Positions 3,782-47,314 of a stretch of 47,314 nt of DNA are shown here, in pieces. The position numbers and the translations under genes are program-made. Each line of letters opens with the position of its first letter. Positions within the stretch are counted from its first letter, which is position 1. Under the pieces are notes generated by a model. It was not told where the DNA came from and did no database searches. It was given only the letters and a program-made list of their open reading frames with translations. This stretch comes from a bacterium (GTDB taxonomy: Bacteria > B130-G9): the NCBI GenBank assembly GCA_035527515.1, contig DATLAJ010000126.1:1-47314 (forward strand). The letters are read 5' to 3'.

Positions 3782-5749
3782 TTAATGCCCGAGCCGCTTC
3801 AATACCTTTTCAGTGATTCCTATCCGCTCCTCAGCGGCGGCCAGAATACTATGGATCGCATCTGCGTAGGACATGCCGGCCAGCGCAGCCGCTTTTACTA
3901 AGTGGCCGTCCCAGCACCAGCCAGGGTTCGGATTCGCCTCGAGTAATCTGGGACTGCCTTCGCCATCCAGGCGCCAATCAAACCGGAAGTAATCGCGACA
4001 TTCGACCCGGCCCGCAAGCAGAAGGCACCACTCGACAATCGTTTCTTCCACACTTGAGAGAAGATCGGCGGGAATGGTCTTGATTTTCCAGTATGGAGAG
4101 TCGGGGCACCACTTTGCCTCATAACCGCAGATTCTGGGCAGGTCCGGGGGCAGGGTCGAGTAATCTTCCTGGGTTATGGGGAGCACCTGATAGGAACCGC
4201 CTGGTTGCCCTATAATTCCTACCGTTAGGTCCTTACCGGTGAGAAACTCCTCCACAAGGATGGGCTTATCATACCCAAACTGCTCCCGCAAACGGCTAAC
4301 TGCATCAACCAGAGCTTCTTCGCTTTCCACCACGCTGTCAGCGAAAATGCCGAAACTGGAATCGCCCAAATTGGGCTTCACTATGACAGGATAGGATACA
4401 GCGATTTCTATACTCTGTGCATCGGGCAGAACAATGGAGGACAAGGGGACGGGGATTCCCATCTCCTGAGCAATGCCTTTTATCATCGACTTGTCGTAGC
4501 AGCTGGCAAGACACCGGGGTCCTGAGCCGGTGTAGGGGATTCCAAGGATTTCAAGCAACGCAGGGACGTGCAGCTCTTTCCGAGGATCGTTATCATAGCC
4601 TTCGTCGCAAAGGTTGAGCACATAATCTATTTTGGGGCGTAGGCGCACGAGGTCATTCAGCAGCCGGTCGTGGCGCTTAATATAAACGAATTTTCGGCCA
4701 GAAATGGAGCCCAGGGCAGTCTTCAACTCGTCGATGGTGCTGAAGTCATCCTCATCGAACGTGTTGTTGGGCTTAATAGGGTCAGACTTTTCGGGGTCTC
4801 CCAGAATCACCGCTACTTGGATGAACTCTCTCTTTCTGGCGGGTCTTGGGGTCCACTCTTTTCTTGCCGAGGCGGTCACGAATATCCGCCGGGCCATCAT
4901 GCCGAGGTCCTGGTTGCGGCTCGATTCCATTTCCTGGTTGTCTTGAACAACCACTTCGGTGAAACCCACTGTCTTCAAAAGACCCTGCAGATCGCTTTTG
5001 GTGTAGAGGCGTTCCGCGTAGATTTGGTCCGTCAGCACGCCTTTTTCTACGTGCGTGATCACCTCGCGGCAGATGAGGCGGTCTTTCTGGACAAGCATCC
5101 GCTCCCGGCAAACAAACATCCTGTCGTCAATCCATTCCCAGGAGCGAGCTTCGTAGTGAGCTGCTACGTACTCACCGTCCGCGACATCCAAAAGAAAACG
5201 TCCCGAAGGCTTGAGTACGCGAAATACCTCCTTTAGCACCATGACATCTTCGCTTGGGTTTTCAAAGTACCCGAAACTGTTGCCCAGGAGGAGGACTACC
5301 TCGAAGCTGTCCGGGGAATAGGGTAGCTTTCGCGCATCACCCTCTCGAAGATCAACGCTGAGCCCCTCATTAGTTGCAAGGGACTTTGCCTTTCTGATCA
5401 AGAACCGAGAACGATCGAGCCCGTGAACACTCCGGTATCCCCGCCTTACCATCTCCAATGAGTGGCGTCCCTGGCCACAACACAGATCGAGAATATCCTC
5501 ATCCGGTTGGAGATGGACCAGCTCGCAGATACGGTCAACTTCCATCCTGGTGATGCGTTCGTCACCCACAACATCACCATCGGTCTTCAGGTAGAGGCTG
5601 CCGAAGAGCGACCGCCACCAATCGGGACGCAGATAAGACTGAAGGTCGGGAATGGGACCGTAGGTTCTTCTTTTCGAGGTCTTCCGGCGCGCCCTTCTCT
5701 TACCATTAGAAAGCGCTGGTTCTTTCGCCATCTTATGCATCTTCCTCAT
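3782..5749 (-). CDS. SAM methyltransferase fused to D-Ala-D-Ala-ligase-like ATP-grasp domain
   Basis: A 655-residue two-enzyme fusion. Residues about 60-295 form a class I methyltransferase: motif I ILDLCCGQG (86-94), GDARKLPYSPDSFE (137-150) and GNSFGYF (156-162). Residues about 310-650 form an ATP-grasp ligase of the Ddl type. It has NLCDEG and a VPALLEILGIPYTGSGP stretch (395-411), the ATP-binding VIVKPNLGDSSFG (455-467), LVEEFLTGKD (498-507) and a metal site with Asp591, Glu604 and Asn606 (LLEANPNPGW). Family knowledge says the ATP-grasp half should make an amide or peptide bond from a carboxylate and an amine; the methyltransferase half could modify the substrate or product. Both substrates are unknown. 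Start is ambiguous among ATG 5749, 5740 and 5731; a GAGGAAG lies between the first two. The gene stands alone, convergent with the ferritin-like gene. Confidence 0.85.
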   Translation of the reverse strand: MRKMHKMAKEPALSNGKRRARRKTSKRRTYGPIPDLQSYLRPDWWRSLFGSLYLKTDGDVVGDERITRMEVDRICELVHLQPDEDILDLCCGQGRHSLEMVRRGYRSVHGLDRSRFLIRKAKSLATNEGLSVDLREGDARKLPYSPDSFEVVLLLGNSFGYFENPSEDVMVLKEVFRVLKPSGRFLLDVADGEYVAAHYEARSWEWIDDRMFVCRERMLVQKDRLICREVITHVEKGVLTDQIYAERLYTKSDLQGLLKTVGFTEVVVQDNQEMESSRNQDLGMMARRIFVTASARKEWTPRPARKREFIQVAVILGDPEKSDPIKPNNTFDEDDFSTIDELKTALGSISGRKFVYIKRHDRLLNDLVRLRPKIDYVLNLCDEGYDNDPRKELHVPALLEILGIPYTGSGPRCLASCYDKSMIKGIAQEMGIPVPLSSIVLPDAQSIEIAVSYPVIVKPNLGDSSFGIFADSVVESEEALVDAVSRLREQFGYDKPILVEEFLTGKDLTVGIIGQPGGSYQVLPITQEDYSTLPPDLPRICGYEAKWCPDSPYWKIKTIPADLLSSVEETIVEWCLLLAGRVECRDYFRFDWRLDGEGSPRLLEANPNPGWCWDGHLVKAAALAGMSYADAIHSILAAAEERIGITEKVLKRLGH

Positions 5750-6093: not shown

Positions 6094-6987
6094 CTAAAGA
6101 GGATGCGGGCCAGGCCAATAGACTAGCGCTAAGATGCAGACTATCCAGAGCAAGATGTCGATTATCAGCGGCGTGTCCTCGAGGAGAATCTGAGCCGGGC
6201 TGCCACCCATCTCCTTGCGATAGACGATATAAAGATAGCGGAAAAGGCCGTAAAGGACGAAAGGTATCGTGATGAAAAGATATCTCGTCCCGAACTTCTT
6301 CGCGATCTCGGGCGAGACCGTGTAAAGCGAGTAAGCCATAATCGTCGCAGCGGTAACGATGCTGATCATCTGGTCAAGCAGCTGAGGCGTGTATTCCTTA
6401 AGGATGAAACGGTGGGCCGCCGCGTTGTCTCCGAGGCTCACGAGCTCGTGGCGGCGCTTGGCGATCGCAAGGAAAAGCGAAAGAAAAATCGTGCAGGCAA
6501 TGAGCCAGCTGGAGAACTCAACACGAATGACGATGGCGCCGGCCAGAGCGCGGATAACGAAGCCAGCGGAGATGGTCATGATGTCCAGCAGGACGATGTG
6601 CTTCAGGATGTATGAATAGGCCATCATCACCGCGAGATACAGAGCTGAGACAATCCCGAAACCGGCTGAGAGCCAGAAACTGACAACCAGCGCAATTGCG
6701 GCGAGGACTGAGGCCGCGAGGATAGCGAATGATGGGGAGAGCGCTCCCGAGGCGATCGGACGATGCCGCTTCTCGGGGTGTTTCTTATCTTCCTCGATGT
6801 CGGTAACGTCATTTACGACATAGACAAACCCGGAAAGGACGCAGAAGACCAGAAACCCAAGAAAAGACCTCGCGAACAAGTCCGCCTCGAAGAGATGCTT
6901 TGAGAAGGCGATGCCGCCGAACAGGAGAACGTTCTTGGTCCATTGCTTGGGCCGCATCGCTTGGAGCAATAACAGGGTTCTTTTCAT
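6094..6987 (-). CDS. UbiA-family decaprenyl-phosphate phosphoribosyltransferase-like protein
   Basis: A polytopic UbiA-superfamily prenyl transferase of 297 residues with about eight membrane helices. The first Asp-rich motif is NDVTDIEEDKKHPEKRHRPI (59-78); this NDxxDxxxD followed by HPxKRxRPI is the mark of DPPR synthases, which transfer phosphoribose from PRPP to a polyprenyl phosphate. GFVIRALAGAI and AKRRHEL are also typical. The product would be polyprenyl-phosphoryl-5-phosphoribose, a precursor of lipid-linked ribose or arabinose. It is the last gene of a minus-strand set and starts 29 nt after a HAD phosphatase, which could supply the dephosphorylation step. No DprE1/DprE2 epimerase is in the window. 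Start ATG 6987 agrees with the usual MRPKQW beginning of the family. Family is secure; substrate is inferred. Confidence 0.87.
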   Translation of the reverse strand: MKRTLLLLQAMRPKQWTKNVLLFGGIAFSKHLFEADLFARSFLGFLVFCVLSGFVYVVNDVTDIEEDKKHPEKRHRPIASGALSPSFAILAASVLAAIALVVSFWLSAGFGIVSALYLAVMMAYSYILKHIVLLDIMTISAGFVIRALAGAIVIRVEFSSWLIACTIFLSLFLAIAKRRHELVSLGDNAAAHRFILKEYTPQLLDQMISIVTAATIMAYSLYTVSPEIAKKFGTRYLFITIPFVLYGLFRYLYIVYRKEMGGSPAQILLEDTPLIIDILLWIVCILALVYWPGPHPL

Positions 6988-7779: not shown

Positions 7780-8958
7780 CTATATGCCAGGAACGAGCTC
7801 CTTCAGAAATGATGCGAGTTTCTCTGCACGCTTCAAGAATGTATGCCGCCTCGCTGTCTCGAGGCCGTTTGTCATGAGATCAAGCGCTAGTTGCGTGTCA
7901 AATGCAACTGTCTTAATGCCGTCTGCAAGCGATTCTGCGTCATCCGGCCTCACGAGATAGGCGTTTTGTCGGTGCCGAAGTATCTCTCGCAGGGAAGGCA
8001 CATCGCTCGCAACAACTGGTATCCCGGCCGCCATGTATTGAAAAAGCTTCAACGGACAGGTGAAAAACGCGGGTTCCGAAGAGTGTCCCGCTGGCAGCGG
8101 TATCACGGCTGCCGTGAAATCGTTCGAGTGAAGGAAGGGCATGACATCGCGAGGCGCAAGATAGCCAGTGAAAGAGAGCCTGTCCGCCGGGAGCGATCTG
8201 GCACTATCAAAGAGGTTTGAGGCCCTTGCGCCGACAACGACAAGTTGGCAACCCTCAAGATAGCGCAGCGATTCAAGAAGCGTCTCAGTGCCCTTCCAGC
8301 CGCCCATACTGCCCACATATACGACTCGCAAAAGGCCGCCGTCGCTTCCGCTCGCCGCCGTTTCCTTGTTCGCTCCTGCGGGCACGACCGGCTCCGGCCC
8401 ACCATTCCTTGCGACGATCACCTTGTGGTCCCGGCCAAACAGAGTCCTGCTCAGCGCCGCAGCGGCGTCAGACGTGCAGACAAGTCCGGCCGCCATATCG
8501 AGGACCTCGCTCTCCGCCTTGAACGTGCGCATCGCTTTGTGTCGAACTCGCCTCGGCGAGAGCCCTGCAAGCCTCGCCTCGTCCGAGACCACCATAAACG
8601 TCATCTTGTGCGCCTCGTAAACAAGAGGTGTTTTGGTGCTTCTGCTCAAAGGAAGGAGCTTCCGCGCCGTTCTGAGGTTTCTCGCGTAGAGAAGGGGCTT
8701 TTGTGGCGAGCTCTGTTTGAGTAAGGCTCGGACTGCATGCCGGCTGCCAGATTCGGCCTTACCGGTGATCGTCATGTTCGCGGGCAGAACGAGGCCGTAG
8801 AAGTCTGCGACGTCGGCTGGGGTCTCGAGAGTGAGCCGATCGACCAAGAGGTGAACTGCGATTCCCAGCTTGGCGAGACTGACGCAAGTGTTTAGCACCT
8901 GAATCGATCTTGCTTTTCTCTCGGGAAGCGCCGCCTCATGGACATAGATGATCGGCAT
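7780..8958 (-). CDS. Glycosyltransferase family 4 (GT-B fold)
   Basis: A 392-residue retaining glycosyltransferase. The N-terminal half begins PIIYVHEAALPERKARS, a donor/acceptor domain start common in GT4 enzymes. The C-terminal Rossmann half has VYVGSMGGWKGTETLLESL, a VVVGAR strand, the linker SFTGYLAPRDVMPFL and the nucleotide-sugar site in PLKLFQYMAAGIPVVASD, in which the usual E-x7-E site is only partly preserved. It should add a sugar to a lipid-linked glycan on the cytoplasmic face. It starts six bases after the PilM-like gene with no separate ribosome site, so it is probably translationally coupled, and it runs directly into the HAD gene. The sugar specificity cannot be told. Confidence 0.87.
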   Translation of the reverse strand: MPIIYVHEAALPERKARSIQVLNTCVSLAKLGIAVHLLVDRLTLETPADVADFYGLVLPANMTITGKAESGSRHAVRALLKQSSPQKPLLYARNLRTARKLLPLSRSTKTPLVYEAHKMTFMVVSDEARLAGLSPRRVRHKAMRTFKAESEVLDMAAGLVCTSDAAAALSRTLFGRDHKVIVARNGGPEPVVPAGANKETAASGSDGGLLRVVYVGSMGGWKGTETLLESLRYLEGCQLVVVGARASNLFDSARSLPADRLSFTGYLAPRDVMPFLHSNDFTAAVIPLPAGHSSEPAFFTCPLKLFQYMAAGIPVVASDVPSLREILRHRQNAYLVRPDDAESLADGIKTVAFDTQLALDLMTNGLETARRHTFLKRAEKLASFLKELVPGI

Positions 8959-37454: not shown

Positions 37455-37480
37455 GCGACAATCTGGCGGAGAGCCTCCGC
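37423..37480 (+). terminator. Two small hairpins around the stop codon
   Basis: CCTCCG/CGGAGG (37423-37438, loop TTAG) lies in the last codons and GCGGAG/CTCCGC (37466-37480, loop AGC) just after the stop. Neither is followed by a T-run, so the terminator call is weak. Confidence 0.25.
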
Positions 37481-37486
37481 TCCCAT

Positions 37487-37534
37487 GCCCTGGGCCGAGG
37501 CTGGCGTGGCCACACCAAAGCCCTGGGCCGAGGC
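37487..37534. repeat. Pair of 15-bp direct repeats
   Basis: GCCCTGGGCCGAGGC occurs at 37487-37501 and again at 37520-37534, 33 nt apart, in the gap before the ABC transporter genes. No function is suggested. Confidence 0.7.
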
Positions 37535-37721
37535 GCCGCGTCCGCCGTCGCTTCGGCTGTGAAGGCGAGCTCCGTTTCGGTGCGAGCCGACCCAGTTCGT
37601 TCGCAGATTGAAGCAGCTATCCGAGTGCCGTGGGCACCCATGCGTGTCAGCGCTTGCCGACCAATTCCGCCGGCTGGATCTGGTTGAATAACTGCTGTGC
37701 CTCGGGAACCCTTGTATCGAT

Positions 37722-40373: not shown

Positions 40374-40721
40374 GAGGGGCTCGGACCGCAGGGTCTGAGG
40401 GGGAAGCCACTGAGTTCTTGCCAATAATGTCGCATCGGCCTCGTCCCAATCTAAAGTCCGCATCTGATTCTGTCCAGCAATGGCGCTTGCCCAAGCTGCT
40501 CCCATCGCTTTGTCCGGCTGAAGGTCATGAGGGGTGTATTCCTTTGTGAGAATCAACGGCTTAAAAACACTGGAATAAGAAGCGGGAATGCGCCAATAAT
40601 CGGATATTGCACAGGGACTTTGGTGCGGGATAAGCGCCTGGCATGGTGACGTCGGTTTGATTGCTATGCGGTCTGAAGAGACGTGGCAAACGGAAATATC
40701 TTCTCTGAAAGGAGAATCCTA
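40374..40721. other. Interval before corA with a start-less minus-strand open frame
   Basis: These 348 nt hold no supported gene on the plus strand. On the minus strand one frame is open from about 40716 to 40359 (roughly 118 codons), but the first ATG/GTG/TTG is a TTG at 40556. Its translation includes SDYWRIPASYSSVFKPLI and AMGAAWASAIAGQNQMRT; I do not recognise it. It could be the tail of a degraded gene or chance. Confidence 0.3.
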
Positions 40722-41789
40722 ATGCTGAAGCGATTCAGAAAATCATCCAGAACGGTCGGCTTGCCTCCGGGCACACCTGTTTACACGGGAGAGATAAGAA
40801 AAGAAGAGAAGGTCAGAATCACGCTCTTCAAATATGACGAGTCGCAATTCCAGGAAAGAGAAGTAGATGACATCGAGAGGGGCTTCCGGCTTTCGGAGAA
40901 TCTGACCGTAAGCTGGATCAACATCGATGGGATTCACAGGCCCGAGATCGTCCAACAGGTTGCTCAGCAATTTGGCCTCCACTCACTGACAGTCGAGGAT
41001 ATCGTCAACATCCACCAACGTCCCAAGGTCGAGGAGTTCGAATCCTACGTCTTTGTGGTCCTCAAGATGCTCTATCTCGACGAGGCGACAGACCAGGTGA
41101 TCGCTGAGCAGATTAGCATCGTACTTGGCTCGGGCTTCGTTCTGTCGTTTCAGGAACGTGAAGGAGACGTATTCAAAAGCATCCGAGATAGGATACGCGG
41201 CGCTAACGCACGCATCAGGCACAAGGGCGCCGATTACCTTGCTTATTGCCTAATTGACGCCGTTGTTGATCATTACTTCACGATTCTGGAGCGCATGGGG
41301 GACGATATCGAGAAACTGGAAGAGCAGATTCTGAGCGAGCCCTCAAGGGAGACGCTTCAAGGCATCTGGCGGTCTAAGAGCGAGATCATGTTCATCAGGC
41401 GATGCATTTGGCCATTGAGAGAGGTGATCGGTGGCCTTCAAAGGCTCGAAAGCTCACTTGTTCAGGAATCCACAAACCTGTTCTTGAGAGATGCCCACGA
41501 TCATATCATCCAGATCATCGATACCGTTGAGTCCTTTAGGGACACCCTCACAGGGATGCTTGACACGTATCTTTCGACAATCAGCAACAGGATGAATGAA
41601 GTGATGAAGGTACTGACCATCATCGCAACGATATTCATCCCGCTGACTTTCATCGCAGGAGTCTATGGGATGAATTTCAAATTCATGCCGGAGCTCGAGT
41701 GGGGTTTTGGCTATTTCGCGGTTCTGATTGCGATGGGCATCGTTGCGTTAGGGATGGTAATCTATTTCTTCAGGAAAAAGTGGTTTTAA
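40722..41789 (+). CDS. corA: CorA-type Mg2+/Co2+ channel
   Basis: A 355-residue CorA protein: a large cytoplasmic N-terminal domain (HSLTVEDIVNIHQRPKVEEF is typical), a long stalk helix (GMLDTYLSTISNRMNEVMKV) and two C-terminal membrane helices, the first ending in the universal GMN selectivity motif (VYGMNF). It forms a homopentameric channel for Mg2+, or Co2+ and Ni2+, in the inner membrane. ATG 40722 has AAAGGAG 7 nt before it; the frame could be read from GTG 40683 but without family support. Single gene, convergent with the RHS region. Confidence 0.95.
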   Translation: MLKRFRKSSRTVGLPPGTPVYTGEIRKEEKVRITLFKYDESQFQEREVDDIERGFRLSENLTVSWINIDGIHRPEIVQQVAQQFGLHSLTVEDIVNIHQRPKVEEFESYVFVVLKMLYLDEATDQVIAEQISIVLGSGFVLSFQEREGDVFKSIRDRIRGANARIRHKGADYLAYCLIDAVVDHYFTILERMGDDIEKLEEQILSEPSRETLQGIWRSKSEIMFIRRCIWPLREVIGGLQRLESSLVQESTNLFLRDAHDHIIQIIDTVESFRDTLTGMLDTYLSTISNRMNEVMKVLTIIATIFIPLTFIAGVYGMNFKFMPELEWGFGYFAVLIAMGIVALGMVIYFFRKKWF

Positions 41790-41804: not shown

Positions 41805-41826
41805 GGCTCGCATCAGCCCGCGAGCC
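41805..41826. terminator. Possible bidirectional terminator between corA and the RHS fragment
   Basis: GGCTCGC (41805-41811) pairs with GCGAGCC (41820-41826) around eight bases, between convergent coding regions and overlapping the last codons of the RHS fragment. No T-runs flank it, so the call is weak. Confidence 0.3.
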
Positions 41827-42121
41827 CAGCGACGAATCGCCTCAGTAGGCCCCAACTAAGCCGACCGGAGAGCGAGGACCAAAACACGGAGCTCATCCGG
41901 TCGAAGGGATCATAGTTGAACGCCTTAGTGTCGCCGCCCGCCTGCTTGGCGGTCTTATCCGTCATGGAGAGAGGCTCATCAACCCACGGCCCGTGCGTGT
42001 ATTCTTTATTCACCGTTGACCAGTCCGAGTTATACTTCTGAATGACGTCGTTTCTATCGTAGAAGAACTTACGCGTGCCCGAGGCGTCCGTCAAGCTGAG
42101 GCGCTTGCCATTCTGAATCAC
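41813..42121 (-). pseudogene. RHS core fragment 1, truncated and rearranged
   Basis: About 100 codons of RHS core. GKRLSLTDASGTRKFFYD and YTHGPWVDEPLSMTDKT match the second fragment at 44187-44341 base for base over most of 155 nt. After AGGD, however, it jumps to TKAFNYDPFDRMSSV, a segment that in the second fragment comes before GKRLSL, so the order is permuted. The frame then ends in an unrelated 20-residue tail. The GTG at 42121 overlaps the TGA of the preceding gene (42118), probably by accident of the junction. No signal or complete core; best seen as a recombination relic. Confidence 0.8.
41955..42109 (-). repeat. RHS direct repeat A, copy 1
   Basis: Ungapped 155-bp partner of 44187-44341, with scattered substitutions. 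Same orientation, about 2.2 kb apart. Confidence 0.9.
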
Positions 42122-43260
42122 GGTGTAAAGCTGGCAATGACCTCCCCGCCGAGCCTTTGGATCACAATCTCACGCGAGGTAGAATCGTAATAGACCATCT
42201 CCATAAGGTCCACATCCCAGGCTGAGACCCTGAGCGATGTCGGTTTCGGCAGAACTACTCTCTCAAGCAGCTCACCGCTGATACTGAAGACCCTCGCGCC
42301 GACCACCATCTTCGTTGTGCCCGGGAGGCCGTCTTTCTGAGATTGACCTTCTGTTTCGAGGAAGCCTATGTTGCCCGACGCAATGCCGGCTTTGAACTGG
42401 TCACCAACCCAGTCCACTAGCATTCTCAACTCTCCTGTCGCTACGTCGTATGACCAAAGAGCAGGCGCGCTTCCCACTTGGGCAAGGTTCTGTCTCGAAA
42501 AGAACACCCTCCTAGCATCAGCCGTGATACCTAGCAGCTTCACAACCCCATCAGCTATGGCCCTGCCATCCTGACAAAGCACTCCCGGGGCGTTTGGTCT
42601 CTCAATGTCAACGCCCGCCCAGACCATTTGGCGGTCCTTGAGCAAGAACATCCCGTCTCTGACGTGACGCACACCGTCAGGTGCCAACTCCGTTTCAGCC
42701 GTTCCGACCGAAACTAATACATGCTTCGATTGGTCCGAAGAATCCGGAGCAATGTCAATCGATATTGCAGCAAGACGACCGTCTAAGATGTTGTAGCGAT
42801 CGAAGCAAAACAGTCTCTTATCCGGCGCGCCTTGAATTAACTCGCAGCATTGCATAGTCATGGGATCGAGTTGCCATAAGGAAGTCATGGCTTCGTGGCC
42901 GCCGTTGAATGTGGTAAAGCAGTACGGGCCATTTGGCGCTGTCATGACAAACGTAGGCAACTGCCTCTGACCAGAAGTGAAGATGTCGCACAGCCGTTTT
43001 CGCTTCACGTTACCTTCGGGGTCCCATGAGAATCCCCGTACCGACCCGTTTGTGAATCTGGGGAAGCCCATCGAGTCTTTGGCTGGGCGGAGCTTCACAT
43101 AAAGTGCCTCCCTCCTCCCCGGAATGATCGCGAGCTCTGACACAGTGACGGGCCCTTGACGCGGCTGCGTCAAAAGAAACACTACGAGGAGGATACCCAA
43201 CAAAGCGGTGCCCATAACGAACTTCAAGACTACCCGCCCAGATGATGCAGATTCAGGCAT
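42118..43260 (-). CDS. Membrane-anchored protein of unknown function, possibly a beta-propeller
   Basis: A 380-residue protein without a recognised family. One N-terminal membrane helix (VMGTALLGILLVVFLLT) is preceded by a short charged tail, so the bulk would face the periplasm. The rest has repeated strand pairs with Trp and Asp turns (FSWDPEGNVKRKRL, SLWQLDPMTMQCCEL, LWSYDVATGELRML, VFSISGELLERVVL, AWDVDLMEMVYYD), spaced like blades of a beta-propeller. ATG 43260 follows AGGAG at 12 nt; the longer frame from TTG 43317 adds 19 residues. It sits between two RHS fragments, after the C-terminal cassette of fragment 2, a place where immunity or accessory genes are often found. That role is speculative. 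Confidence 0.6.
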   Translation of the reverse strand: MPESASSGRVVLKFVMGTALLGILLVVFLLTQPRQGPVTVSELAIIPGRREALYVKLRPAKDSMGFPRFTNGSVRGFSWDPEGNVKRKRLCDIFTSGQRQLPTFVMTAPNGPYCFTTFNGGHEAMTSLWQLDPMTMQCCELIQGAPDKRLFCFDRYNILDGRLAAISIDIAPDSSDQSKHVLVSVGTAETELAPDGVRHVRDGMFLLKDRQMVWAGVDIERPNAPGVLCQDGRAIADGVVKLLGITADARRVFFSRQNLAQVGSAPALWSYDVATGELRMLVDWVGDQFKAGIASGNIGFLETEGQSQKDGLPGTTKMVVGARVFSISGELLERVVLPKPTSLRVSAWDVDLMEMVYYDSTSREIVIQRLGGEVIASFTP

Positions 43261-43450
43261 GTCGTGGGCTTCTCCTATGGTCTTCACCGGGCGAAGCAAC
43301 AGTTCAATCGGAGCCAAGCTCTTCTTTCCATCGATCAGGGTGATAGTCTTCTGACCGTGAAATGTCTATTCTTCCGGACCTGCAAACGAGTCCTCGCGCA
43401 AGCGAGGCGAAGGAGACCCAGCCTAACCAACCTACCCGGAGGCGTCATTG

Positions 43451-44743
43451 CTAGAAGAAAAGGTCCCAAACCGATTTGATGGTCCAGACGGCCGCTCCAA
43501 CGTAGGCCCACACCTTCTCCCCTATTTCAGTGTCGTTCTTTGCTGCAAGGGCGAAGCCCTTTGCAACGTCTTCAGCACTCCCGCATTTACCCTTGCCATC
43601 CTTACCCACATATCCGATCACATCTCCATTCTCGTCGTAGAGCGGCATCTCCTCGTCTCCGTCCTTCTCCTCGTCCCAGTCTCGCTCCTCGTTGCCCTCC
43701 TCGCTATCCTTGACCTTTATGCTTCCGTCTTCCTTCTTAGTCGCTTTCTTAGTCATGAAAGCCCATATCGGATCCCAGCATGGAGGTCGCACGCCAGGGC
43801 CACACGGCCTGGCGCATGATTCTGCATCCAATCCAATTGACGCCCCGGCAATCAGGCCAAAGGGATCGGTGAAGTTGGTGGGGGAGTTGTGGCAGTAGGC
43901 GTAGAGGCTGCCGAGGGAGAAGACGGGGTCGCGGCTGAAGAAGCGACCCAGGGATTGATTGTAATACCTCGCCCGGTAGAAGTAGTTGCCCATCGCCTCG
44001 TCATAGACCCGGCCCGTGAAGCGATACATGCAGTCAACATGGCCAGAGTGATACGTCGCGGTGGGCTGGCCGAAGGCATCATACGAATACGTCGTTTTGA
44101 GGTTCTCGTTGCTATCCATGATGTTGATTATGGAGCCGAGCCGGTCCTTCATGAGGTAGTGCGTATCTCCCGCCTGCGTCTTTGTTTTATCCGTCATGGA
44201 GAGCGGCTCGTCAACCCACGGCCCATGAGTGTATTCTTTATTCACCGTTGACCAGCTCGAGTCGTATTCCTGAATGACGTCGTTACCGTCGTAGAAGAAC
44301 TTACGCGTGCCCGAGGCGTCTGTCAAGCTGAGTCGCTTGCCGTCGGGGCCGTAGGTCATTGATTGGAGGGTGTTTCCGCCTTCTGAGACCGAGGTCATGC
44401 GATCGAACGGATCGTAGGCGAATGTCTTAGTGACACCGCTGGTTGTCTGCCCTGTAAGGTTTCCATTATCATCGTGCGAATAGGACGTGCCTATCGTGCC
44501 CTCGGTTGACTGCGTGAGCTGGTCGGCGGCGTTGTAGATGTAGGAGATAGTTGCGTCCGAGCTCCGCGCCCACTGCGTCCTGTTGCCGTTGTCGTCGTAG
44601 CTGAACGCGTCGGTATTACCCGCCGGATACGACGCCTCGGTCAGCTGCCCCTCGGCATCGTAGGTGTAGTCCGTTTCCCCAACGTTGTATTCGTCTTTCT
44701 CGGTTACGCGCGCACAGGCGTCGAATGTCAATAAAGACCACAA
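43451..44743 (-). CDS. RHS core fragment 2 with variable C-terminal region
   Basis: A 430-residue frame holding the last part of an RHS protein. YD repeats (ETDYTYDAEGQL, NTDAFSYDDNGNRTQW, TISYIYNAADQL, TFAYDPFDRM) lead to the RHS-associated core end (RDPVFSLGSLYAYCHNSP, NFTDPFGL). About 125 residues of a non-core C-terminal region follow: acidic in the middle (EEGNEERDWDEEKDGDEEMP) with a hydrophobic end (VWAYVGAAVWTIKSVWDLFF). Complete RHS proteins exceed 1000 residues, so the N-terminal two thirds are missing. The frame opens abruptly at a TTG without ribosome site, 25 nt after the TPR gene. It looks like an orphan core/tip cassette. No known toxin family is recognised in the tip. Confidence 0.75.
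   Translation of the reverse strand: MWSLLTFDACARVTEKDEYNVGETDYTYDAEGQLTEASYPAGNTDAFSYDDNGNRTQWARSSDATISYIYNAADQLTQSTEGTIGTSYSHDDNGNLTGQTTSGVTKTFAYDPFDRMTSVSEGGNTLQSMTYGPDGKRLSLTDASGTRKFFYDGNDVIQEYDSSWSTVNKEYTHGPWVDEPLSMTDKTKTQAGDTHYLMKDRLGSIINIMDSNENLKTTYSYDAFGQPTATYHSGHVDCMYRFTGRVYDEAMGNYFYRARYYNQSLGRFFSRDPVFSLGSLYAYCHNSPTNFTDPFGLIAGASIGLDAESCARPCGPGVRPPCWDPIWAFMTKKATKKEDGSIKVKDSEEGNEERDWDEEKDGDEEMPLYDENGDVIGYVGKDGKGKCGSAEDVAKGFALAAKNDTEIGEKVWAYVGAAVWTIKSVWDLFF
43866..44176 (-). repeat. RHS direct repeat B, copy 1
   Basis: Ungapped 311-bp partner of 46271-46581, coding for the conserved end of the RHS core from AGDTxYLMKDRLGS to NFTDP. Same orientation, about 2.4 kb apart. Confidence 0.9.
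44187..44341 (-). repeat. RHS direct repeat A, copy 2
   Basis: Partner of 41955-42109, coding for GKRLSLTDASG to SMTDK of the RHS core. Confidence 0.9.
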
Positions 44744-44768
44744 ACAGCAAGGGGAAATCAGTACATTC

Positions 44769-45782
44769 CTAATCTCCCGAAGCGTCGGCTGAAGCGACGT
44801 TCTCTAGCATCCCCTCAAGTCTCGTGATGTCTGCTTGGGCATATTCGACTTCGCATCTTTCAGTGAGGTCCGCATTGTCCACGAATCTCTCGTAGCTGTC
44901 AATGGCCTCACTTAATCGGCCCAATTCTTCCAGGACCCTCCCCCTTAGAAGGTGAGCTATAGCATAGTCAGGCACCAACGCTATTGCTCTATCGCAGTCG
45001 GATAACGCCTCGGCATATCGCCCTACTTCTTTCAGGGCGCAGCCGCGGTTGTAATAGGATTTAGCGTCATCATGATCCAGCGCGAGTGCCCGTTCGAAGT
45101 CGCTAAGAGCTCTATCATGTTGTCCCAACGTTTTGAAGCATATCCCTCGATTGCAATACGCACTCGCGTGCTTCGGATCTACCGATAAAGCCCTGGTGTA
45201 GTTCTCAATGGCTAGGTTTGTGAGGCCCAATTCCACGTATGAGTTACCACGGTTGTAGTATGCTTTAGCATACCTTGGATTGAGCTCTACCGCCCTGTCA
45301 TAGTCCGCAATTGCTTTGTGAAATTCACCGGACTGTCTGTATGCCGCCCCTCGAAGTAGGTAGCCCGAGAAACTAGCAGGTCTCAGGCGGATCGCATTGC
45401 TGCAATCGGCAACGGCCTGCTCCGACATTCCCATTTCTAGATAGACATAAGCCCTCTTGAGATAGGCCTGGAAATACTCTGGCTCCACTGCTATTGCCCG
45501 TGAATAGCTTGCTATAGCTTTGCCATATTCATGCTCTGCCTCCCACCGTTTCCCGTCCGAGTAGTGAAACTGCGCATTGTTCTCTTGACAGCCTGAAGCT
45601 AGAATGCAGAATGCGACAGCAACTGACCCACAGAATACCCGAATTAGCCGATGACCCCTCGACTGCTCTCGAGAGCCAACCGAAGGGCTGCCAAGATGTC
45701 GATTCCTGCCTATACACAGGGACTCTAGTGGCCTCCTCGTGTCCCCATGTGAGCAGAACATGACGTTACGCAAGGCTCTCAC
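44769..45782 (-). CDS. TPR-repeat lipoprotein
   Basis: Seven 34-residue TPR units (first at HYSDGKRWEAEHEYGKAIAS, last at LLRGRVLEELGRLSEAIDSY) follow a hydrophobic stretch ending in a lipobox-like LASGC, so the protein should be a lipid-anchored periplasmic or outer-membrane adaptor. TPR proteins bind other proteins; the partner is unknown. The start is a problem: the frame opens at GTG 45782 or ATG 45761, putting about 45-55 polar residues before the hydrophobic segment, and no ATG, GTG or TTG lies nearer. The 5' end may have been replaced by a recombination junction. It lies directly after the C-terminal cassette of RHS fragment 3. Confidence 0.75.
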   Translation of the reverse strand: MRALRNVMFCSHGDTRRPLESLCIGRNRHLGSPSVGSREQSRGHRLIRVFCGSVAVAFCILASGCQENNAQFHYSDGKRWEAEHEYGKAIASYSRAIAVEPEYFQAYLKRAYVYLEMGMSEQAVADCSNAIRLRPASFSGYLLRGAAYRQSGEFHKAIADYDRAVELNPRYAKAYYNRGNSYVELGLTNLAIENYTRALSVDPKHASAYCNRGICFKTLGQHDRALSDFERALALDHDDAKSYYNRGCALKEVGRYAEALSDCDRAIALVPDYAIAHLLRGRVLEELGRLSEAIDSYERFVDNADLTERCEVEYAQADITRLEGMLENVASADASGD

Positions 45783-45807
45783 ACCAGCTCTCTGACACGC
45801 ATCGTGC

Positions 45808-46026
45808 TCATTCCCATCCTGGTCCCGACCCCACCCATCTCATCTCGTTTTCTTCCCCCTCGGGTGGATCACCGCTTGGTGGATCGTCATCGTTGTCGTC
45901 TATTGGCGGCTCTTCGTCGATCTGGTTGCCCTCATCGTCAAACAAATCTATCTCGTCACCATAGTAATCGTCTTTATCTCTGTCTTTGTAATTAGGGTCC
46001 ATCCAGGACCTATACTCGAGTGCCAC
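45808..46026 (-). pseudogene. Acidic in-frame continuation of RHS fragment 3
   Basis: Seventy-two codons in the same frame as RHS fragment 3, directly after its TGA (46027-46029). It is very acidic (DEIDLFDDEGNQIDEEP, DDNDDDPPSGDPPEGEE) and resembles the acidic middle of the fragment 2 tip (DEEMPLYDENGDVIG). The simplest reading is that the TGA is a nonsense mutation in one longer tip. It has no ribosome site of its own, though the GTG at 46026 abuts the stop. A separate small gene cannot be excluded. Confidence 0.5.
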
Positions 46027-46656
46027 TCACCAGAAGCCATATACATCCATTAGCTCCATAAACATCAACCAGTCAAAACCATCTCCAGAATCACCATCTG
46101 AGTCATAATCAATACTGGACTGCCATGCTGGAGGATCGCCAGCGCTTGCTCTTGGCAGATGGAAAGTCCATGACCAGTCACTGGTTGAGCCCGAACTAGC
46201 ATCACCTCCGCCCGTGTCTCCTCCCCCTCCGGCCGGGTTAGGGTCGGGTACAGAGAACGTCCCACTCGGGTCGGTGAAGTTTGCGGGGGAGTTATTACAG
46301 TAGGCGTAGAGGGACTGGAGGGAGAAGATGGGGTCGCGGGAGAAGAAGCGGCCAAGCGATTGGTTGTAGTAGCGAGCACGGTAGAAGTAGTTGCCCATCG
46401 CGTCGTCGAACACTCGGCCTGTGAACCGATACATGCAATCGACCTGGCCGCTGTGATAGGTCGCGGTCGGGTCGCCGAACGCGTCGTAGCTGTAGGTCGT
46501 CTTGAGGGTCTCGTTTTCGTCGAGGATGTTGATGATCGAGCCGAGGCGGTCCTTCATTAGGTAGTAGGTGTCGCCCGCCTGGTTGCTGATCGCGTTGCTG
46601 TGGTTCCCCAAGTGCGGCTTCTCACTTTTGTTGGACAGCAAATAGAGAGCATTCAT
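46027..46656 (-). CDS. RHS core fragment 3 with variable C-terminal region
   Basis: A 209-residue frame. The first 26 residues are unrelated to RHS; from QAGDTYYLMKDRLGSI to NFTDPSG it is the end of an RHS core, nearly identical to fragment 2 in the 311-bp repeat B. The tip then differs completely: a Gly-rich linker (NPAGGGGDTGGGDASSG) and WTFHLPRASAGDPPAWQS before an acidic end and a TGA. The ATG overlaps the stop of the preceding small membrane gene (ATGA). It lacks a complete core and a signal, so it is another orphan cassette. The tip matches no toxin family I know. Confidence 0.7.
   Translation of the reverse strand: MNALYLLSNKSEKPHLGNHSNAISNQAGDTYYLMKDRLGSIINILDENETLKTTYSYDAFGDPTATYHSGQVDCMYRFTGRVFDDAMGNYFYRARYYNQSLGRFFSRDPIFSLQSLYAYCNNSPANFTDPSGTFSVPDPNPAGGGGDTGGGDASSGSTSDWSWTFHLPRASAGDPPAWQSSIDYDSDGDSGDGFDWLMFMELMDVYGFW
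46271..46581 (-). repeat. RHS direct repeat B, copy 2
   Basis: Partner of 43866-44176. Homology starts and stops sharply at both ends, so the flanking tips and upstream parts are unrelated. Confidence 0.9.
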
Positions 46657-47018
46657 GACCCATGTTGGGTAAGCTCGCGCGATACTTCATTAGCACCCAT
46701 ATCTCGCAGCTTTTCACCGATCCTCTTAAGGGAGATGAGGTATGTAATCGGCATTATAATGCCACTCAATACAATAAGCCCACACGGCATGACCGCCAGT
46801 GGCAATATACGCATAATTCGTTTCAAAAGCGGAAGCCTGAAATATGGGGAGGAGGTTGTGACGTATGCGTCAACAATGAAAAAGATGCATAAGAGTGCCA
46901 CCAGAATAACATTAGCCACCGTAAAGAAGAAGCGCCAGCGGCTGGAGGCCAGCTTATCAATCAATTCCATTGTTCGTTTGCCCTGCCGATCAATCAGAAG
47001 TTCCCAAAACCAAGCCAA
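46653..47018 (-). CDS. Small two-helix membrane protein
   Basis: A 121-residue protein with two clear membrane segments (FFTVANVILVALLCIFFIVD and ILPLAVMPCGLIVLSGIIMP) and basic ends; no family is recognised. TTG 47018 has GGGGAG 8 nt before it and is taken as start; ATG 46970 gives a 105-residue product that keeps both helices. Its stop overlaps the ATG of RHS fragment 3. Small membrane proteins of this kind serve as immunity proteins beside polymorphic toxins, but nothing here proves that. Confidence 0.55.
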   Translation of the reverse strand: MAWFWELLIDRQGKRTMELIDKLASSRWRFFFTVANVILVALLCIFFIVDAYVTTSSPYFRLPLLKRIMRILPLAVMPCGLIVLSGIIMPITYLISLKRIGEKLRDMGANEVSRELTQHGS

Positions 47019-47314
47019 CGCGCGTCTCCCCTTTTCCTTAAATACTCAGTCCTATTGCATCCCTAGCGCCACATAATACAGGCAATTGGAAGGACCGTAA
47101 ACCCTAAGATAAGACCTTTTGAAGGTTACCAGAGATCCCAACTGTTGTCAACTCTAAGCCGCCAGGCCATTTTACTGAAGACGTAGCTTGCCGTCCCAAA
47201 GTAAATACTCATCCCGAAAACCCCAGGGCCTCCTAAAGGCGACAAAAGCGCATATTCGATTGAGAGAAAAAACAAAGCGTCCGAATACAGATTGTAGTTA
47301 TCGGCTATTTCCTT
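47019..47314. other. Gene-free right edge
   Basis: No supported gene, RNA or repeat was seen in these 296 nt. It may hold the promoter of the small membrane gene, and any full-length rhs gene would lie further right. Confidence 0.3.

Follow-up and report, generated by a model that had tools for sequence, protein, structure and literature searches.

An array of RHS core fragments, tips and membrane or exported partner genes, probably an orphan rhs-CT/immunity array, in a candidate-phylum bacterium

The window analyzed here is the entire contig C126 (47,314 bp) of a draft assembly of 183 contigs and 3.47 Mb that is 95.6% complete (G000) and comes from a little-studied environmental bacterium. 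Three RHS open reading frames and three other genes lie at its right end, every one on the minus strand. The first-pass annotation had described three RHS fragments with a small membrane protein, a TPR lipoprotein and a propeller-like membrane protein between them, and all six are found where it had placed them. The ungapped blocks that it had reported between fragments were also recovered, as 300 nt at 79% identity (43863-44162 and 46268-46567) and 173 nt at 88% identity (41937-42109 and 44169-44341). From right to left, the features are:

47126..47314, minus strand: C-terminal half of the core-plus-tip fragment 'A-own', whose core lies on contig C111 (L013:8057-8801)
46653..47018, minus strand: partner 1, 121 aa with two hydrophobic helices, likely ATG start at 46970
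46027..46656, minus strand: RHS fragment W3, core between QAGDTYY and TDPSG, tip acidic and Gly-rich
45808..46026, minus strand: 72-aa acidic ORF immediately after W3, known from the ORF list alone
44769..45782, minus strand: partner 2, TPR protein with a lipoprotein-like signal (LASGC)
43451..44743, minus strand: RHS fragment W2, core of about 300 aa from FDACARVTEKD to FTDPFG, the longest of the array
42118..43317, minus strand: partner 3, 399 aa, N-terminal membrane helix and beta-propeller
41813..42121, minus strand: RHS fragment W1, 72 aa of core with a scrambled 3' end, without a tip

All three fragments had been described as core plus tip, which holds for W2 and W3 and fails for the fragment at 41813-42121. 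There the sequence returns after QAG to a preceding repeat, FNYDPFDRMSSV, and closes with some 20 unrelated residues; W1 looks like the terminal debris of the array. The 72-aa ORF, for which a family search gave no match, is possibly a remnant of a tip, and its status as a gene is doubtful.

The array continues past the window. Contig C111 and the window share exactly 25 bp at their right ends, and the reading frame is continuous across them (...YRKEIADNYN into LYSDALFF...). The joined array spans about 8 kb, in which five RHS core fragments and five partner genes alternate in cassettes ordered head to tail. The count of three fragments thus falls short of the array total. The upstream flank, on C111, consists of ABC-transporter genes, and the downstream end faces a CorA gene (40683-41789). 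The C111 part comprises:

L013:6064-6429: two-helix protein, 121 aa, the first partner after the ABC-transporter genes
L013:6433-6777: RHS core fragment that stops inside the core
L013:6885-8057: TPR-like protein, exported, between two RHS fragments that both have an MKDRLGSI stretch
L013:8057-8801, then window 47314-47126: core-plus-tip fragment 'A-own', spanning the contig join

The observation is therefore real and longer than first described. Assembly error at the repeats, which had been named as a way in which it could fail, was rejected: the longest exact repeat between RHS copies is a 55-bp stretch common to W1 and the C111 fragment at L013:6433-6777, the others are at most 33 bp, which makes such an error unlikely, and the copies differ at a dS of about 1. 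We examined the four junctions at which an RHS fragment follows a partner without an intervening repeat, and at three of them the stop codon of the partner overlaps the start codon of the fragment: ATGA at 46653-46656, where the W3 ORF begins on the stop codon of partner 1, GTGA at 42118-42121, and TGATG at L013:8055-8059. By our own estimate chance would give such an overlap at about 1/8 of junctions, so these are suggestive only; W3, W1 and one C111 fragment, which start on a partner stop codon, could be produced through translational coupling instead of recombination.

W2 has RHS repeats, and both W2 and W3 have the RHS-associated core domain TIGR03696, above curated cut-offs. W2 matches PF05593 (E=4e-21, 75 bits) and TIGR03696 (E=1.4e-18, 67 bits, against a curated cut-off of 32.5 bits), W3 matches TIGR03696 (E=3e-19, 69 bits), and so does the core of 'A-own' (E=7.6e-13). 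The N-terminal and export part of Rhs is missing from the fragments. Relatives of W2 were found at 62-79% identity. In its structure model the YD shell reaches a pLDDT of 70-85, and the tip, 136 aa long with a helical C-terminus, stays below 40 and was left uninterpreted for that reason.

Beyond the core, similarity between the copies ends abruptly. In six of seven pairs, DNA identity is about 80% up to the (F/Y)TDPxG codons and has dropped to about 25% within the next 30 nt; in the seventh, formed by two copies in the related genome G002, it extends about 110 nt further, through the linker. These are detached cores in which homology ends at DPxG(L) and the sequence beyond is unrelated. They retain both Asp-Pro motifs of the Rhs self-cleavage region. 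DPxG is the known border of Rhs tips (PMC3150448; PMC3967940). Among the core copies, dN/dS is mostly 0.1-0.4 and dS mostly 0.5 to >1, with frames still open. Differences between W2 and W3 are dominated by third codon positions (14, 9 and 45 by position; dN/dS = 0.11), dN/dS among W2, W3 and the fragment that spans C111 and the window is 0.11-0.37, and these three are open from start to stop, with no stops despite a dS of about 1. Neutral copies at such a dS should carry stops, and the lack of any in the intact ones points to selection on the core.

Tips and partners were searched against Pfam, NCBIfam, PADLOC and PDB sequences, which returned the RHS core and generic TPR only; no known toxin, immunity or defence family in these libraries was matched. 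The remark in the first-pass annotation that the tips and intervening genes belong to no recognized family stands, the TPR match being generic. Partner 1 had nothing above cut-off in the family libraries. Its similarity to two-helix proteins that follow the tips called A in related genomes (see below) is weak (prob 12%; z=2.7), and we do not claim it as a member of that family; it is a candidate immunity protein. Partner 2 matches TPR_1 (E=5.6e-55), carries a hydrophobic signal and is a candidate either for an immunity protein or for a bystander. Its role is the least certain, since TPR relatives are common across these genomes, and the same spread of relatives left undecided whether it belongs to a specific TPR immunity family. 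The AlphaFold2 model of partner 3 (pLDDT 81, pTM 0.78) was matched by Foldseek to propellers of the TolB, prolyl-oligopeptidase and Kelch types (E 1e-7), kinds so diverse that they identify a fold and no specific function; partner 3 is a candidate immunity protein and the founding member of a lineage-restricted family. A hydrophobic membrane or signal segment is present in all partners examined, and exported or membrane partners would fit toxins that act at the envelope.

We compared four genomes of the phylum, the present one included, and found the same RHS core in all of them. G001, congeneric with G000, yielded a single core piece. Comparable arrays are present in G003 (JAFGIT), a MAG labelled Candidatus Coatesbacteria (L039/L040), and in G002 (AUK292; contig C47, L041), whose contigs C30 and C47 overlap by 91 bp. 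Their cassettes are ordered as follows:

G003:C362: tip A with a two-helix protein; another tip with a propeller; another tip with a membrane protein
G002:C30-C47: a tip with a CPBP-type membrane protein; tip A with a two-helix protein; tip B with a propeller

An A tip with its membrane protein, followed by a B-position tip with a propeller, is the order common to both. The A tips of the two genera match at E ~1e-33 and their two-helix partners at E 3e-11; between G002:C47 and G003:C373, the B tips are matched at E 1e-8 and the propellers that go with them at E 9e-26, with no crossing between the A and B families. In these relatives, each A or B tip is followed by a cognate gene that varies with it. 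Profile comparison of the window's own tips with the relatives' A and B tips detected no relation beyond the short linker; the significant match is a 26-residue linker alone, and we do not claim the tips as homologues. The own A-position tip likewise shares only the linker with the relatives' A tips. Because no relation of the own tips was detected beyond the linker, the co-variation is that of the relatives' pairs rather than of the window's. Among the own cassettes, the propeller is the only partner clearly related to partners in the relatives.

The window's propeller matches the relatives' propeller family at E 4e-27 to 3e-12; for the tip that precedes it, no relation to the B tips was detected. 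Members of this family were found in 3 of 386 genomes searched, all within this bacterial family, and occur at four RHS-free sites besides the arrays. Two of the RHS-free sites are gene clusters:

G000:C132 (L076:6687-8982), same strand: two membrane proteins, then a propeller
G002:C50 (L077:265-4046), same strand: three propeller-type genes with 5-9 bp spacers

One membrane protein of G000:C132 is a relative of the A-tip partners (28%, 1e-11), and the last propeller of G002:C50 is the nearest relative of the window's propeller (37%). In both clusters the genes lie close together on one strand with no toxin between them, as in the polyimmunity loci described for polymorphic toxin systems (PMC3482391), and by analogy we regard them as polyimmunity-like.

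A full-length rhs gene, which the first-pass annotation had suggested seeking past the right end of the contig, is not what lies there: C111 provides more of the array and then ABC-transporter genes. Nor does the 95.6%-complete draft assembly hold one with this core anywhere, an absence that is not final because the assembly is a draft. Within the own genome, the core occurs at high identity on C126 and C111 only; C16 carries two long RHS fragments with a different core (33-40% identity), and the sole Rhs N-terminus, on C138, is confined to a truncated ORF that encodes a signal sequence and a short DUF6531. Enterobacterial orphan modules usually stand behind a main rhs gene whose core resembles theirs; no such gene was found ahead of this array. 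One array head in G003 retains more RHS repeats upstream, as far as the contig reaches, so a main rhs gene may exist there, and DUF6531 N-termini are present in both G003 and the own genome.

Two further RHS loci in G000 (L010:718-7394 and L012:508-4897) have a different core and cysteine-rich tips, and exported propeller-type proteins of 738 and 858 aa adjoin them. At L012:508-1597, a cysteine-rich tip-like ORF comes immediately after a shortened Rhs N-terminus (signal sequence and DUF6531), an arrangement that looks like the outcome of a deletion of the entire shell.

All four genomes also contain a dispersed element of about 100-240 bp, whose two ends carry different, conserved stem-loops (GTGCC-CAC-GGCAC and GCGGAG-GCT-CTCCGC) around a variable middle. 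Its sites include:

Window 37465..37639, minus strand: copy outside the array, with ends GTGCCCACGGCACTCGG and GGGAGCGGAGGCTCTCCGC
L013 (C111): 5413-5614, 6508 and 8195-8303
L010: 2503-2521 and 7605-7836
L044:3750-3918 and 4053-4190; L045:904-1040; L047:272-397; L048:220-348

Four of the 18 exact right ends in the own genome fall in RHS loci, against 0.10 expected from the 0.56% of the genome that these loci occupy (P ~4e-6). RHS fragments start at or beside a right end of the element on C111 (6433) and C16 (718), in G003 (2356, 4886 and 590), in G002 (272) and in G001; none of the window's three fragments does. On C111 (8195) and in G003 the element substitutes for a stretch of core in frame, and elsewhere it does so out of frame. 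In G001 it lies exactly between a truncated ABC-transporter gene and the RHS core, at the place equivalent to C111. Comparison of L048:3-562 with L013:1803-8801 shows that the G001 ABC-transporter gene breaks off after some 75 codons and that the element connects it to the core; the equivalent place in the own genome is taken by two complete ABC genes and the head of the array. We consider the element a candidate agent of rearrangements at RHS loci. It had no match in Rfam. The own genome has a single Y1-type (REP-associated) transposase gene (G000:C146:61682-62026, L090), and the element was considered as its product; element ends were not found beside this gene on C146, and the link is therefore unproven.

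The array shares with enterobacterial orphan rhs-CT/rhsI modules (PMC3150448; PMC3967940) 3' core fragments of variable retained length that end at DPxG, unrelated tips, one gene per tip, and a head-to-tail arrangement in a single orientation. It differs in that no main rhs gene was found upstream, that several fragments begin on the stop codon of a partner, that a hairpin-ended repeat stands at many fragment starts, and that the partners are membrane or exported proteins of 97-443 aa (two-helix, propeller, TPR), whereas known rhsI genes are small ORFs. Polymorphic toxin systems (PMC3482391) likewise combine cassettes with separate polyimmunity loci, which the same-strand, toxin-free clusters G000:C132 and G002:C50 resemble, but the tip and partner families here match none known in the libraries searched. 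The core can be aligned to the PDB Rhs cores 8h8a, 8qjd and 7q97 and to the Tse5 toxin 8cp6 (3e-27 for the best alignment of W2 to Rhs chains), although the fragments keep the last part of the shell only, without an N-terminal plug or delivery domain. The Rhs toxin Tse5 acts on membranes and is paired with an immunity protein of the membrane, a combination that the proposed A-tip pairs resemble.

We propose, with a probability of roughly 0.72, that this region belongs to an Rhs polymorphic toxin system, as the downstream part of its orphan rhs-CT/immunity array. The break in homology at DPxG, the conserved pairing in relatives, the partner-only clusters and the exported or membrane partners lead us to this reading, as do the retained Asp-Pro motifs, the excess of third-position differences and the cassette order common to two genera. 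The first four lines also support the earlier idea of orphan core-tip cassettes that could be new toxin/immunity pairs. Each cassette would consist of a 3' piece of RHS core, a variable tip starting at DPxG, and one exported or membrane-anchored partner gene. The tips would be antibacterial toxins acting at the cell envelope, and the two-helix membrane proteins, the membrane-anchored propeller and perhaps the TPR lipoprotein would be their immunity proteins; each partner probably protects the cell from the preceding tip. At present the array may mainly retain immunity genes and spare tips. Several findings count against this explanation: neither tips nor partners match a toxin or immunity family already described, the co-variation of tip and partner is that of the relatives' pairs, immunity proteins are rarely as large as the partners of 337-399 aa, ABC-transporter genes and no main rhs gene were found upstream of the array, and the comparison rests on four genomes of the phylum.

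A refinement of this proposal, which does not exclude it, is that recombination through core homology equips an expressed full-length rhs gene with a new tip and immunity gene from the cassettes, as in Salmonella. The layout is that of the enterobacterial orphans for which this has been shown (PMC3967940; PMC3150448), and the longer RHS stretch at one G003 array head and the DUF6531 N-termini in G003 and the own genome agree with it. Against it, pair order is kept between two genera rather than shuffled, and the copies share just 79-88% identity across 170-300 bp, compared with 95% over 522 bp in Salmonella (PMC3967940). Since the assembly yielded no recipient with this core, we consider it rather unlikely that the cassettes feed an expressed rhs gene. 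The first-pass annotation had pointed to such recombination in enterobacteria; for this array it is not supported, given the lack of a full-length rhs gene with this core and the divergence of the copies, and the overall interpretation of the annotation is partly supported.

A decayed rhs locus, broken by duplication, deletion and repeat insertion, with intervening genes unrelated to the tips, would account for the scrambled, tipless W1, the C111 fragment (6433-6777) that stops within the core, the array head without a main rhs gene, the lack of a full-length gene with this core, and the replacement of core stretches by the dispersed repeat, in and out of frame, in several copies. It is unlikely, however, given that W2, W3 and the C111-window fragment remain open at a dS of about 1 with dN/dS of 0.11-0.37, that the partners are open reading frames with conserved relatives, and that tip and partner families co-vary across genera. 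We judge a surface or adhesion system, with teneurin-like shells, propeller receptors and neither toxins nor immunity proteins, to be very unlikely: propeller and TPR folds are frequent in binding proteins, Rhs-like shells act in adhesion in animals, and the partners here are exported, but the tips are short, variable from DPxG onward and without repeats or anchors, and the partners track particular tips and also occur in partner-only clusters. Nothing pointed to the surface-variation store that had been raised as another option.

If the orphan rhs-CT/immunity reading is correct, the layout is one already known; what is new is the lineage in which it occurs, along with the families of tips and partners and the element at the borders. 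We know of no description of array building by a repeat at cassette borders; that this repeat, as a non-autonomous element of a lineage-specific cassette system, and not core homology, sets the 5' borders of cassettes and drives deletion and joining, with the membrane-anchored propeller family as a new immunity class, is a doubtful proposal. The orphan-array reading, if true, would extend Rhs cassette arrays to a barely studied candidate phylum, add two families of tips and, as candidate immunity proteins, the exported or membrane propeller and two-helix families, all absent from family libraries, and provide small, expressible gene pairs for testing.
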